From NCBI GenBank assembly GCA_022813675.1, contig CP063375.1, forward strand, positions 2,058,001 to 2,122,000: DNA of 64,000 nt. The letters are read 5' to 3'. Below are positions 46,325-51,479 of this stretch, piece after piece; positions within the stretch are counted from its first letter, which is position 1, and each line of letters opens with the position of its first letter. The notes under the pieces were generated by a model. The model searched no databases and was not told where the DNA came from. It worked only from the letters and a program-made list of their open reading frames with translations. The position numbers and the translations under genes were made by a program. The DNA is from Deferribacteraceae bacterium V6Fe1 (GTDB lineage: Bacteria; Chrysiogenota; Deferribacteres; Deferribacterales; Deferrivibrionaceae).

Positions 46325-47485
46325 TTAAAATGCAGCTTCGTAAACCTTTATTTTATCCAATACCTTATCAAGATATCTTTTGGTTTCATTATAAGGAAGA
46401 CTTCTCTTCAATGTCCTATACACATCATCCGGACTCATTCTGTTAACCACATTAACTGCAGCAGAAATATTATAGCTTCCCACAAACGCCTTTGCAACAT
46501 TGCCAGAGCCTGTATTATACGCTGCTATACTGCAATAGAGCCTGCTTGTTGGATTTTTTATACCTTTGAGATAGGAATAATATAAAATCCTAAAATAAGC
46601 TGCACCAATTTTTATATTATTATCGGGATTGTAAAGATATGATGGTGCCAATATCTTCTCTTTACCGAACAAAAACTTTGTAGCATCTGCACCCGCCGTT
46701 CTTGGAACAATTTGCATCAAACCATATGCAGGAACATAAGACTTGGCTAACGGATTAAAATAACTTTCATTGTGAATTATTGAAAAAATAACTTCCGGCT
46801 GAATTCTGTGAGCACCGGCATAGTTAAAAACATATTTTTTAACAAAATTTACTTTCTCTTTTAAGTCCTTGTTGGGTAGATTTATTTCCACTTGCAAAAT
46901 CTTTGTACCTTTATCTTCAACTGTTTTAATATCAGAACTCTTTATAGCTTCTTTAATTTTTTCAATATCCGTTTTTTGGGTGATATAAGGTGAAAGCACA
47001 TTTACTTTAGGGATATCACCCGTGACAACAATATTTGACTTCTTACTCAATCTTCTTTCCACATTTTTTGATACTTGGTCCCGTTCAAATGCGGTCACAA
47101 GATTCTCATTAATTGTATCCTCAACTAATTCTTGTACTTTACTTATATTAGAAGTTTCATCAGATAAGTTATCAACCTTTACCTCTACAATTAGCCTGTC
47201 ATTTTCATAATCAACTATTTTTCTACTTTTCTTATCCTGAGAATATTCAACAAAAATTTTGTTATTTGAAATTTTCAAATCGCTCCAATATGCGCCAATC
47301 TCTTTTTTATAGTTTTGTAATTCTTCATCCAAGATTCTCTTATAGTTTTCAAACTCTTCATCCAATTGCTTTTTATAACTATCAAACTCACCCAAAAAAT
47401 TATCTTTAAACTGCTCAAATTCGTCAGCTTGCACACTTGTAAATACAAACAGACAAGCCAAAATTAAAAACAATAGTTTTTTCAC
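46325..47485 (-). CDS. MltC-family lytic murein transglycosylase with N-terminal hendecad coiled coil
   Basis: 386 residues. Signal peptide MKKLLFLILACLFVFTSVQA, then four 11-residue repeats at 22-65 (EFEQFKDNFLG, EFDSYKKQLDE, EFENYKRILDE, ELQNYKKEIGA), an MltC N-terminal (DUF3393-like) domain (YSQDKKSRKIVDYENDRLIV), and a C-terminal SLT domain with catalytic Glu in IHNESYFNPLAKS, YGLMQIVP, AAYNTGSGNV and MSPDDVYRTL. It cleaves peptidoglycan glycan strands to 1,6-anhydro ends. GTG 47485 has GAGG six bases upstream. Unlike E. coli MltC, the best cleavage site is signal peptidase I (VQA), so probably periplasmic. Last gene of a five-gene envelope cluster. Confidence 0.88.
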   Translation of the reverse strand: MKKLLFLILACLFVFTSVQADEFEQFKDNFLGEFDSYKKQLDEEFENYKRILDEELQNYKKEIGAYWSDLKISNNKIFVEYSQDKKSRKIVDYENDRLIVEVKVDNLSDETSNISKVQELVEDTINENLVTAFERDQVSKNVERRLSKKSNIVVTGDIPKVNVLSPYITQKTDIEKIKEAIKSSDIKTVEDKGTKILQVEINLPNKDLKEKVNFVKKYVFNYAGAHRIQPEVIFSIIHNESYFNPLAKSYVPAYGLMQIVPRTAGADATKFLFGKEKILAPSYLYNPDNNIKIGAAYFRILYYSYLKGIKNPTSRLYCSIAAYNTGSGNVAKAFVGSYNISAAVNVVNRMSPDDVYRTLKRSLPYNETKRYLDKVLDKIKVYEAAF

Positions 47486-47486
47486 A

Positions 47487-47879
47487 CTATTCCTCACACA
47501 TTAAAACAAAAAGCTCTTCTTTGTAAGGGTCAAGCCATATCTCTTTGATTTTGGCGCTAACAGTTTGCCCTTTGGTTGTTTGAACACTATACACCATCAT
47601 CTTAGAATTAGCTGAGTTAGAGCTTCCATACATAAGATGCTCCACATCAACATTTACAGATACATTCTTCTGTCTTGCTATCCCCTCTATTGCTCTTGAA
47701 ATTGCCAAAGCCCTTTGATAAGGCTTCCCTCTAATATGCGGAAGTGAGCTTCCTACATAACAAATCCCATTTGAAGAAGGGACATTAAAAATCCAGTCGG
47801 GATACTGTGACTTTTGAACACCCTGTTGATTATTTGCACACCCAACAATAAACATCAAAACAATAACCCAATATTTCAT
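47487..47879 (-). CDS. Small LPP20-like lipoprotein
   Basis: 130 residues. N-terminal lipobox IVGC at residues 11-14 makes it a lipoprotein. The body has the LPP20-type pattern YPDWIFNVPSSNGICYVGSS followed by a helix ALAISRAIEGIARQ and a beta strand SVNVDVE, comparable with the protein at 47931 and with that at 49961. Function unknown; LPP20-fold proteins of other bacteria are outer-membrane associated and linked to flagella (FlgO/FlgP-like) or surface assembly. It ends one base before the mltC start and is separated from the next upstream gene by a terminator-like hairpin. Confidence 0.8.
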   Translation of the reverse strand: MKYWVIVLMFIVGCANNQQGVQKSQYPDWIFNVPSSNGICYVGSSLPHIRGKPYQRALAISRAIEGIARQKNVSVNVDVEHLMYGSSNSANSKMMVYSVQTTKGQTVSAKIKEIWLDPYKEELFVLMCEE

Positions 47880-47902
47880 ACCTCACACCCCAAAAATAAA
47901 TA

Positions 47903-47924
47903 TGCGGCAAGAAAACTTGCCGCA
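47903..47924 (-). terminator. Terminator-like hairpin inside the envelope cluster
   Basis: Perfect 9-base stem TGCGGCAAG/CTTGCCGCA with a 4-base loop; on the minus strand it is followed by a T-rich stretch (TATTTATTTTT). It lies after the LPP20 lipoprotein gene and before the small lipoprotein gene, so it may terminate or attenuate the cluster, making the last two genes less expressed. Confidence 0.7.
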
Positions 47925-47930
47925 CATAAA

Positions 47931-48500
47931 TTACTTGCTAAATTCTTTCTGTATTTCAGCATCAAGCTCATCTTGGGCTTTTTTAGCCAAGAATTGCTGC
48001 CACAAAGCCTGCTCATTCTTCAAGCTGGATTTAACACTGTCAGCTACTGACTTTTGAACAACTTGCGGGTCTAAAACTACAAGCACGTAGTACTCATTAC
48101 ATGGAGAAATCCATACATTTTTAGCCTTTGAACCTTCAAGTGTCTGGTTGGCAACCTGTTTAGAAACATTTGCAGATACCTTATCAACTGTCTCAGCATC
48201 CCCTACTCCGGTTACCTGAGTAAAGTTTTTAAACATGTTTTTCACTTTTACGCTTAAAGTTCTTGCCATTTCATCTCTTGCATTAGCAATTGCTTCGGTC
48301 CTTGCAAATTGAAGACCTGCTGCACCGATTTTTGCTGCACCAAGTCCGGTAAGACCACCCTCCATTGTCGGATCAATTACCCAAGCAGGAGCACCTTCAA
48401 GGCATGGGTTTTTCAATGGCTCAGGCCCTTTCTTAGCACAGCCTGAAAACATAAAGATTCCCACTAACACTACCAAAACCAAATACAAAGTTTTTCTCAT
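47931..48500 (-). CDS. LPP20 family lipoprotein
   Basis: 189 residues, signal peptide ending in lipobox FSGC (residues 18-21). Core: GAPAWVIDPTMEGGLTGLGA, then the A-x3-A helix FARTEAIANARDEMARTL and VKVKNMF, diagnostic of the LPP20 fold; C-terminal part rich in K/E with a predicted helix (LWQQFLAKKAQDELDAEIQ). Two cysteines (NPCLEGAPAW and SPCNEYYV) may form a disulphide. The function is not established; the neighbourhood (lytic transglycosylase, transglutaminase-like protein) points to cell-envelope assembly. Ribosome site AGGAGGTAGG. Confidence 0.87.
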   Translation of the reverse strand: MRKTLYLVLVVLVGIFMFSGCAKKGPEPLKNPCLEGAPAWVIDPTMEGGLTGLGAAKIGAAGLQFARTEAIANARDEMARTLSVKVKNMFKNFTQVTGVGDAETVDKVSANVSKQVANQTLEGSKAKNVWISPCNEYYVLVVLDPQVVQKSVADSVKSSLKNEQALWQQFLAKKAQDELDAEIQKEFSK

Positions 48501-48528
48501 ACCTACCTCCTTTTGTTTTCCCTAAAAT

Positions 48529-49971
48529 CTATTTTACTACTTTAGGTCTATACTTGGCAACAATAGGCATTGTCATACCTATGTTTGCATTAATATATGT
48601 GGGGTCAGCTACATAATATTTCTTGTTATTATATATCACATAATCACCGTCAATGTCATCTTTTAATTGTATTGCGGTAGCTACGTGACCGGGATAATCA
48701 AGCAGCACAACATCCAAGCCTAAAATATTTTTTACTAAATAATAATACAAAATCGACCTGTCTTCGCAATCTGAATAAGGATAGAAAATAGTCTCATCCG
48801 GGACAAAATATTTTTCATATCCAAACTGTTCTATATCTGTTTTGTAAGCAAATGCCGTCTGGACAAATCTCAATATTATATTTGCCGCTTCAGCAACCGG
48901 TCTACCTTTTACTATTTTAGATAGTTCTTCAGCCAACGTATAGGCTGTTTTTTGTGATACACCTGAATCTTCATATACATTGAGCTCAGTCTGAGGAAAT
49001 AACTTATAAAAGTTAACATAACTATTATCATACACCAAGTTTATATTGTATTTTTCTCCACTATTGGTAAACGTAAGATGCTTTACTCCATAATTTTGTG
49101 GTAACAAAGGCTTTTCTGCATCAATTTTCAAAACAGATTTACTGCCAGGGTAAGTCCCATCATAAGTTTTAATAGTTTTTAAAAATACCCTTGTTTCAAG
49201 AGTGTCAACAGCGTAATATTTTTTACCCTCAAGCACAAAATATGTCACACCGAATATCTTTTTATCGGATGGGACAAGAAGATAAATTTTGTTACCATCT
49301 ATACCTACTCTGACATCATATCCTAACTTGGCAAGAACAAACCAAGATAAAAGATTAGCCCTATTAAAGTCATTATTGCATATACTAAGAGAAGCCGACT
49401 TGACAAACACAACAGTCCCCCAGTCACCCAAATTAAGAGACTTAACAGCACCTTTGACAGACTCTATTAATACACTAAAATCACTTTTGGAGGCCTTTTC
49501 CCAAAATTTTGCAATTTCATCATTACTAACGCCATTCAAATAGTCACTCACCATATTTTTATCATATTTTAACGTCACTTCTGCTCCGTAAAAATTAAAC
49601 TTATGGGAGATACCTTTGTCTTCGACTACAACAGGAGGCACAACCACTTCGACCGGCTTCTCCACTACAACAGGTGGCTTTATCTTTTCAGGGATAACGG
49701 CTTCTTCAGATGGTTTTTTAACAGCAAGAGGCTGTTGCTCCTCAATTTTAGGAATAGTTACGGGTTTTGGAGTCTCATCCTGCGGAATACCCTTGAACAT
49801 CTGATAGTCTTTCCACTCTTTCTGTAAAAATTCGGTAAACTCTCTATCCCGCTCTTCTTTAAACTGATTATACTCACTCATCTGCTGATTCAAATACTTC
49901 ATAAATTCAGAATCAACAGCCAACAACGTGCTGCCAAACAGCATAATTAATATTAAAATTTTACTTTTCAT
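48529..49971 (-). CDS. Transglutaminase-like envelope protein with N-terminal hendecad repeats
   Basis: 480 residues from ATG 49971 (GAGGA about ten bases upstream). Signal peptide to about 18, then four 11-residue units at 22-65 (EFMKYLNQQMS, EYNQFKEERDR, EFTEFLQKEWK, DYQMFKGIPQD), a proline/valine-rich linker at 70-120 (repeated PxPVVVEKP motif), a middle domain, and a C-terminal transglutaminase-like core: Cys in PYSDCEDRSILYYYL, His in YPGHVATAI, Asp in YVADPTYI. The triad suggests peptidase or transamidase activity on a periplasmic target. I know no named family that combines these parts. It overlaps the gene upstream by 11 bases. Confidence 0.75.
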   Translation of the reverse strand: MKSKILILIMLFGSTLLAVDSEFMKYLNQQMSEYNQFKEERDREFTEFLQKEWKDYQMFKGIPQDETPKPVTIPKIEEQQPLAVKKPSEEAVIPEKIKPPVVVEKPVEVVVPPVVVEDKGISHKFNFYGAEVTLKYDKNMVSDYLNGVSNDEIAKFWEKASKSDFSVLIESVKGAVKSLNLGDWGTVVFVKSASLSICNNDFNRANLLSWFVLAKLGYDVRVGIDGNKIYLLVPSDKKIFGVTYFVLEGKKYYAVDTLETRVFLKTIKTYDGTYPGSKSVLKIDAEKPLLPQNYGVKHLTFTNSGEKYNINLVYDNSYVNFYKLFPQTELNVYEDSGVSQKTAYTLAEELSKIVKGRPVAEAANIILRFVQTAFAYKTDIEQFGYEKYFVPDETIFYPYSDCEDRSILYYYLVKNILGLDVVLLDYPGHVATAIQLKDDIDGDYVIYNNKKYYVADPTYINANIGMTMPIVAKYRPKVVK

Positions 49972-50473
49972 TTTCCAATTCCTCAAAGGCACCTTTTGAC
50001 CTTTTAATTGACAAAGTCTTTTTCAGCTCATCTACTCTTATTTCTTCAAACTTCAGAAGTTTTTCTCTGTCGACACATACCCTTGCAAAAGCTATATTTG
50101 ACTTCTTATTATACTCTATGTTTTTAAAGTTTACATTTTTTAAAATAAAGATTTCATAACTTTTATCTTTTAGAAATGTTTCAAGAAACCCTTTCTCGGC
50201 ATCCGTAGCATTTTTAATATTTTCATTAACAGCAACTACTAATATATCCCCAACCCTTTTCTTAAGAATCGTCAAAGATTTTTCCTTAGCAATATCTACC
50301 GATGCCAAACTGCCATATTCATAACTGCTTGAACAAATCTCATGTTTTGTCTCTTTCATATACCAAGATGGTGCCCCATCTATTGAAATGTCAGAGCTGT
50401 TTAAAATCTGCCCAAATATAAAACTTGTTAAAGTTTTAACAAGTGACAACGCAATAGCGTCAAAACCTATCAT
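49961..50473 (-). CDS. LPP20-like protein, first gene of the envelope cluster
   Basis: 170 residues from ATG 50473. Hydrophobic N-terminus (IALSLVKTLTSFIFG) without lipobox, so exported or anchored. The core GAPSWYMKETKHEICSSSYE plus helix SVDIAKEKSLTILKKRVGDIL parallels LPP20 proteins in this cluster. The C-terminal half contains the strand pair FILKNVNFKNIEYNKKSN and a charged tail. No ribosome site precedes ATG 50473, but a promoter is placed so that the mRNA would begin at or next to the ATG. An earlier in-frame start at 50509 lies upstream of that promoter. Confidence 0.65.
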   Translation of the reverse strand: MIGFDAIALSLVKTLTSFIFGQILNSSDISIDGAPSWYMKETKHEICSSSYEYGSLASVDIAKEKSLTILKKRVGDILVVAVNENIKNATDAEKGFLETFLKDKSYEIFILKNVNFKNIEYNKKSNIAFARVCVDREKLLKFEEIRVDELKKTLSIKRSKGAFEELENEK

Positions 50474-50974: not shown

Positions 50975-51001
50975 AAAGCGGCCTTAGAGCCGCTTTTTTT
51001 T
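50975..51001 (+). terminator. Rho-independent terminator after the triheme cytochrome gene
   Basis: Stem AGCGGC/GCCGCT (50977-50982 with 50989-50994), 6-base loop, then eight T. The T run overlaps the stop of the convergent gene at 51000. Confidence 0.88.
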
Positions 51002-51479
51002 ATTTCATAACCTCATCAATGATTTCAATCTGTCTCTTAAAAGCAGGCTCATCAACCCACTCACATGCCTTTTCAAGCAGCTCCTTTGCACTTTTCAAAT
51101 ACGACTCGTTATTTTTACCATCTTTATTATACTCCTCTAAAAAAGTTACCGCTTTATTACAAATAGAATAAGCAAGACTTCTTATCTGCTTTGCTTTATC
51201 AATCTTCATTGCCAACCTAATAAAAAAGGAAGTTAACAATAAATATAACAACCAGATCCAAATATTAAATCTTAAGCTGACAAGATAAAATGTAGCCACA
51301 ACCACCAAAGTAGTAACAATTGCAACACTGATACCGGGGGAACCAATAAAATACGTGGGGATATTCTTACCATCCTCATATTTATAATATTTAAAAGGCC
51401 TAAAACTTCCCCCTCTCTTATGCTCTTTTTCAGCAATCTTACTAAACTGCCTAAGCTCTTCAAGAATCTCTATCTTCAT
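51000..51479 (-). CDS. Hypothetical protein with two membrane helices
   Basis: 159 residues. A charged N-terminal section (FSKIAEKEHKRGGSFRPFKYYK) precedes two adjacent hydrophobic helices (ISVAIVTTLVVVATFYLVSL and IWIWLLYLLLTSFFIRLAMK, about 70-110), and the C-terminus is a soluble helical part (SYLKSAKELLEKACEW) resembling a short TPR-like or coiled segment. I do not recognise a family. It is alone on the minus strand between the triheme cytochrome and Hsp20 genes. Confidence 0.65.
   Translation of the reverse strand: MKIEILEELRQFSKIAEKEHKRGGSFRPFKYYKYEDGKNIPTYFIGSPGISVAIVTTLVVVATFYLVSLRFNIWIWLLYLLLTSFFIRLAMKIDKAKQIRSLAYSICNKAVTFLEEYNKDGKNNESYLKSAKELLEKACEWVDEPAFKRQIEIIDEVMK

Follow-up and report, generated by a model that had tools for sequence, protein, structure and literature searches.

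A conserved operon-like cluster of LPP20-type proteins, a transglutaminase-fold protein and an MltC-type lytic transglycosylase, with an 11-residue aromatic repeat common to the two putative wall enzymes

We analysed a stretch of 64,000 nucleotides from the complete 2.36-Mb genome of Deferribacteraceae bacterium V6Fe1 (contig CP063375.1, positions 2,058,001 to 2,122,000; "the window", whose own numbering is used throughout). Five consecutive open reading frames (ORFs) at 46325-50473, all on the minus strand, form a gene cluster that recurs in related families and, in part, in other phyla, and its two putative enzymes begin with a common 11-residue aromatic repeat that is nearly exclusive to three protein families and, within the order, is distributed together with one of the two. 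In the direction of transcription, the genes encode an LPP20-fold protein (N1), a transglutaminase-like protein (TGL), an LPP20 lipoprotein (LPP20a), a small LPP20-like lipoprotein (sLPP) and an MltC-type lytic transglycosylase (MltC; see Table 1). Because the gaps between the genes are short (28 and 51 nt) or the genes overlap, by 11 nt (sLPP/MltC) and by at most 32 nt (N1/TGL), the arrangement is operon-like. An earlier note, made from the letters of the DNA, had singled out these five same-strand ORFs, all of which are present, as a candidate envelope module. We tentatively favour the reading that the operon is a cell-wall remodelling module organised by outer-membrane LPP20-type lipoproteins.

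Both mature enzymes, TGL and MltC, start right after the signal peptide with the repeat F-x-x-Y-x(6)-E, whose units have recurring aromatic residues in their first and fourth positions. In a profile comparison of TGL with MltC, only the N-terminal signal and repeat segments aligned, and kinship over the whole length was therefore rejected. The same 11-residue repeat is carried at the C-terminus of a FecR-domain protein (Pfam E 3.7e-15; L159:8834-9547, ~21 kb outside the window), which is encoded near a second LPP20 lipoprotein of this genome, LPP20b (L159:6064-6699); the two genes lie ~21-24 kb before the window start. In four genomes of one family, a FecR-like gene adjoins the module, and in another family it is found next to the LPP20a-MltC cluster. 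When all six aromatic positions were required, a simple pattern was present in 67/100 TGL, 14/18 MltC and 12/13 FecR-like proteins, versus 9/1212 other ORFs. A repeat profile built from all three families gave exactly three matches in its own genome, namely TGL, MltC and the FecR-like protein. Since these families served to build both pattern and profile, their own scores are expected, and what is informative is that other proteins are nearly absent from the matches.

This near absence held beyond the genome of origin. Among 45 members of the order, the profile found matches in 22 of the 22 genomes that have TGL and in none of the 23 that lack it; the third ORF was checked individually in only part of these genomes, and the co-distribution follows a few families, so that the 22 genomes do not count as independent events. 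A set of 30 genomes, drawn mostly from other phyla, gave mainly TGL as matches, and the others that were checked were MltC or FecR-like proteins, even where unlinked, with the single exception of a near-threshold match by a GrpE-like gene. In 195 gammaproteobacterial genomes, 20 of the 21 matches were TGL or MltC ORFs. We consider the repeat common to the three proteins, which the earlier note had not remarked on, more informative than the points raised there. The presence of a common repeat in TGL and MltC suggests a docking tag for an envelope-remodelling complex.

The repeat in MltC is also associated with LPP20-family genes. For the 48 MltC-family matches in the 195 gammaproteobacterial genomes, we examined ~5 kb on either side and scored as repeat-bearing those MltC that had 5 or 6 of the 6 pattern positions. 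An LPP20-family neighbour was found for 10/15 repeat-bearing MltC versus 0/33 without the repeat (Fisher p 4.6e-7). When the profile score was used instead of the pattern, the counts were 7/12 versus 3/36 (p 9e-4). A lipobox was present in 0/15 repeat-bearing MltC and in 10/33 of the others.

Conservation of the cluster extends over several families of the order. All five genes occur in the same order in two families (in genome G001 the cluster is cut by a contig end), a third family has four of the genes (G018) or TGL-LPP20a only (G004, G011), and in a fourth LPP20a-sLPP-MltC and LPP20b form one cluster, with TGL and N1 elsewhere in the genome. In other phyla, we counted LPP20-family genes within 1.5 kb of TGL at 79 TGL loci in named genomes. 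Such a gene was found at 40 of the 79, including 25 of 26 in Gammaproteobacteria; by our estimate, chance would place LPP20 so near TGL at about 1 locus in 100 or fewer, given the few LPP20 genes per genome. MltC joins the TGL cluster in Desulfobacterota (L060) and at two gammaproteobacterial loci (L098, L111). Thus, the genes of the module are clustered across families and phyla rather than scattered, and both N1 and sLPP resemble LPP20 (see below). Searches of the open literature found no description of a combination of LPP20, TGL and MltC, and to that extent the claim that the combination is undescribed is borne out.

LpoB and a tetratricopeptide repeat (TPR) lipoprotein adjoin TGL in Calditrichota and in a handful of other lineages, which recalls the lipoprotein operons of Campylobacter and Helicobacter (Cj0089-Cj0090-Cj0091; HP0018 with the LpoB homologue HP1457; Lpp20 is HP1456). 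These operons, which have been proposed to act in wall remodelling (PMC11394524), also encode LPP20-family, LpoB-like and TPR lipoproteins. However, no TGL, MltC or common repeat has been described for them, and the locus in the window is without LpoB and the TPR lipoprotein.

Other surroundings of TGL were observed as well. At the fourth-family loci L039 and L041-L048, TGL is found by itself, immediately behind xseA and greA-like genes and apart from LPP20a-sLPP-MltC. In Cloacimonadota (L067, L068, L071, L073, L080, L092, L106, L110 and similar loci), a gene for a PBP1A-like penicillin-binding protein is found two genes before it, and a glycosyltransferase gene also precedes it. In many Gammaproteobacteria (L054, L057, L059, L061, L063, L084, L085, L100, L104), LPP20-TGL is found downstream of cytochrome c maturation and DsbA-like genes in a stable arrangement.

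The locus encodes three LPP20-like proteins, for which the level of evidence differs: family for LPP20a, profile for sLPP and fold for N1. LPP20a is over the cut-off of Pfam LPP20 (PF02169; 55.5 bits vs 25.9), and its profile matches the solved Lpp20 structure 5ok8. At E up to 1, Pfam returned no family for sLPP or for N1. The kinship of sLPP to LPP20 was seen by profile-profile comparison only (hhalign E 2.2e-10). For N1, the sequence comparison with LPP20 was weak (probability 15.7). It was not recognisable as an LPP20 paralogue from sequence alone, and the question was decided by fold instead. The AlphaFold2 model of N1 (predicted local distance difference test, pLDDT, 79.6), built from 2 sequences only, has a conserved helix at residues 2-25 and the element order strand-helix-strand-strand of an SHS2-like fold. 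Its best match in the PDB was Helicobacter pylori Lpp20 (5ok8; Foldseek probability 0.99, E 4e-3), with a VIA Z of 9.0 and a root-mean-square deviation of 2.6 over 97 residues, and the next best match, Tip-alpha, reached Z 5.5. The earlier note had taken the three proteins to be paralogues, and this agrees with the Pfam match of LPP20a, the profile match of sLPP and the modelled fold of N1. It had also taken all five proteins to be exported. This needs correcting for N1, which has neither a lipobox nor a classical signal peptide, only its conserved N-terminal helix; in LPP20a and sLPP lipoboxes were read, and TGL has a signal peptide.

A third LPP20-like protein outside the cluster, of 466 aa and with a weak LPP20 match near its N-terminus, is encoded at L160:4012-5412 of the same genome. 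In addition, a short motif, approximately RAxxAFxELDxE, is present at the C-termini of N1 (~49961-50010) and LPP20a (~47931-47990) and at the N-terminus of LPP20b. The pattern, which was written after seeing these sites, has 14 matches, all within these LPP20-fold families. The motif may be another docking peptide.

The fifth protein matches Pfam SLT (E 2.6e-24) and, nearly end to end, NCBIfam MltC (E 1.5e-42 over residues 43-387), and its catalytic Glu, E244, is invariant among homologues, in accordance with its first identification as an MltC-family transglycosylase. Its MltC score is 146 bits and the equivalog cut-off is 375; judged by these sequence matches, it is a full-length but divergent MltC relative with no equivalog assignment. 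The match to solved MltC begins downstream of the repeat. Compared with E. coli-type MltC, the catalytic and middle domains are the same, but the window protein has no clear lipobox and carries the N-terminal 11-residue repeat, which is missing from the solved MltC match. An atypical ILAC is present within the type I signal peptide of the window protein, whose relatives outside the genus have no lipobox.

TGL is encoded by a 487-aa ORF starting at GTG 49992, the real start possibly being ATG 49971. Its Cys, His and Asp (C409, H436 and D463; numbered 408, 435, 462 and 402, 429, 456 in the two homologue alignments) are invariant in 18 homologues and again in an alignment of 48. The structural model is confident (pLDDT 89.6; predicted template modelling score 0.87). 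For the C-terminal domain (~residues 315-480 of the model), the closest solved structure is LapG (Z 9.9 and 9.1; Foldseek probability 1.00), followed by TglA, eukaryotic transglutaminases and pseudomurein endoisopeptidases (Z 7.5-7.7). No good Pfam family was found for TGL: only DUF553 appeared, at E 0.0093 and below its own cut-off, the LapG/bacterial transglutaminase-like cysteine proteinase (BTLCP) family was unmatched at E up to 1, and a sequence search of the PDB returned chance-level matches only. The model thus assigns TGL to the transglutaminase-like superfamily fold, with a Cys-His-Asp triad, as had been read from its sequence. LapG/BTLCP proteins have the closest fold, the same triad and a periplasmic location, which for TGL is predicted, whereas TGL has ~300 extra N-terminal residues, other neighbours and no match to their Pfam family. 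The pseudomurein endoisopeptidases PeiW and PeiP, which have a transglutaminase-like fold and act on wall cross-links, offer a precedent for the chemistry proposed below, although at their Z they are tied with many transglutaminase-fold rows, and their organisms and substrate differ from those of TGL. The GTDB species set holds at least 575 TGL-related stretches, spread over Gammaproteobacteria, Cloacimonadota, Calditrichota, Bacteroidota and other groups. At the Bacteroidota loci L093, L119 and L123, the TGL ORFs are ~880 aa long, suggesting a fused extra domain.

For physical docking, localisation, enzyme activities and substrates, we infer the following scheme. The scaffold would consist of the LPP20-fold proteins, of which LPP20a and sLPP would be lipidated, N1 would be held by its N-terminal helix and LPP20b would be supplied from elsewhere in the genome. 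At the outer membrane, the LPP20-fold lipoproteins would hold repeat-bearing periplasmic enzymes, with MltC and TGL recruited through the 11-residue aromatic repeat at their mature N-termini. There, MltC would cut glycan strands and TGL would act on amide or isopeptide bonds, breaking or making them in stem peptides or in (wall-attached) envelope proteins, so that the two together would remodel the wall locally. The FecR-like protein, with the repeat at its C-terminus, could be a third client, perhaps a sensing or a structural, stabilising part. A wider proposal is that the repeat is a periplasmic address tag which, in several phyla and as an alternative to direct lipidation, sorts unrelated envelope enzymes and the FecR-like protein onto LPP20-fold lipoprotein assemblies; this we hold to be possible but rather doubtful.

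Outer-membrane lipoproteins such as NlpI or LpoA/LpoB regulate wall enzymes. The proposed principle is the same, in that periplasmic wall enzymes owe their position or activation to a lipoprotein of the outer membrane, but the module in the window differs in fold, in clients and in the common repeat as a proposed address tag.

Several observations weigh against a remodelling module organised by LPP20-type lipoproteins: (i) TGL and N1 lie apart from the other module genes in one of the order's families; (ii) in Cloacimonadota, no LPP20 gene was found near TGL (0/24 loci); (iii) five repeat-bearing MltC are without an LPP20 neighbour; (iv) on a tree of the MltC catalytic region, the repeat requires ~6 changes, and only two well-supported independent pairs are available, which is not significant (independent pairs were usually in the expected direction or uninformative, and none was opposed); (v) the TGL model shows part of the repeat broken and confidently packed, not one free coiled coil; and (vi) five repeat-bearing gammaproteobacterial MltC genes are in genomes without TGL. 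On the last ground we rejected a strict dependence of the repeat on TGL, and the link between the repeat and LPP20 may therefore be older or broader than that between the repeat and TGL.

The first two of these points would be accounted for if the genes were merely co-regulated envelope-maintenance genes acting alone, with the repeat as a generic coiled coil, of which there are many, or as a spacer off the membrane or wall. We regard this as unlikely, though it is, with the next one, a main rival, because a repeat profile that matches only three proteins in a complete genome, and elsewhere almost only TGL, MltC and FecR-like proteins, is unexpected for a generic coiled coil.

A different role for the repeat is suggested by the 11-residue repeats of apolipoproteins and synucleins, which bind membrane surfaces. 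The repeat could be an amphipathic helix that binds the membrane surface or the wall directly and replaces the lipid anchor, LPP20 not being its receptor. The recurring aromatic residues would fit such a helix, as would the absence of a lipobox from repeat-bearing MltC. However, direct lipid binding does not predict that LPP20 genes adjoin repeat-bearing MltC specifically, and the TGL model shows part of its repeat packed, which makes this explanation rather improbable.

TGL could also be a LapG-like protease by which a surface protein is set free or matured, with the lipoproteins and MltC serving the export of that protein. LapG is its closest solved structure, and BTLCP proteins regulate surface features, as HvyA does for the Caulobacter capsule (PMC4241560). 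Against this, TGL has no Pfam match to the LapG/BTLCP family, and genes for adhesins or secretion are missing from the conserved neighbourhoods, although no genome-wide search was made for a LapD partner or adhesin substrates. We consider this explanation quite improbable.

A coupling of the module to assembly of a surface structure, which the earlier note had suggested, was not supported. The stable neighbours in conserved loci are module genes or housekeeping genes, and flagella, as judged by the L-ring gene flgH, are dissociated from the module both ways: TGL-LPP20a persists in two relatives that lack flgH, and of the 23 order members lacking TGL, 21 carry flgH. In the two flgH-less genomes, sLPP and MltC have been lost from the cluster as well, which leaves a weak flagellar link for the sLPP-MltC half. 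An accessory role of the module in the flagellum, resembling that of the FlgP basal disc, as the SHS2-like fold reported for both FlgP and Lpp20 (PMC12222027) and the presence of flgH in the window's own genome might suggest, is highly improbable given this dissociation and the lack of flagellar genes in the conserved neighbourhoods of the module.

LPP20-family proteins are widespread and include the antigenic Lpp20 of H. pylori and FlgP of flagellar discs. The locus described here links them with a lytic transglycosylase and with a family of LapG-fold enzymes that is large, found in many phyla and apparently undescribed, and the repeat provides a concrete, testable hypothesis for how LPP20 lipoproteins could select their enzyme clients. 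If it is true, cell-wall enzymes can be placed at the outer membrane in trans and not by a lipid anchor of their own.

Table 1. Features of the five-gene cluster, in window coordinates
Feature	Coordinates	Strand	Evidence
N1: LPP20-fold protein, conserved N-terminal helix, no lipobox	49961..50473	-	ORF, model, Lpp20 fold match, conserved in 19 order members
TGL: predicted periplasmic LapG/transglutaminase-fold protein, Cys-His-Asp C409/H436/D463	48529..49992	-	ORF, alignments, model
11-residue aromatic repeat of TGL, mature N-terminus	49789..49905	-	profile match E 1.3e-13
LPP20a: LPP20 lipoprotein with lipobox	47931..48500	-	Pfam LPP20 E 7.8e-15; profile vs 5ok8 E 2.9e-5
sLPP: small LPP20-like lipoprotein with lipobox, conserved	47487..47879	-	hhalign probability 96.8 to LPP20
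MltC-type lytic transglycosylase, catalytic Glu E244	46325..47497	-	Pfam SLT, NCBIfam MltC, solved-MltC profile match E 7e-51
11-residue aromatic repeat of MltC, mature N-terminus	47276..47419	-	profile match E 9.6e-13
Terminator-like hairpin between LPP20a and sLPP	47900..47927	-	pattern scan only

The hairpin between LPP20a and sLPP may possibly reduce expression of the last two genes, sLPP and MltC. At 51000-51479 of the window lies a gene for a conserved 159-aa protein that has no Pfam or NCBIfam match and is 84% identical to its counterpart in a relative of the same genus.

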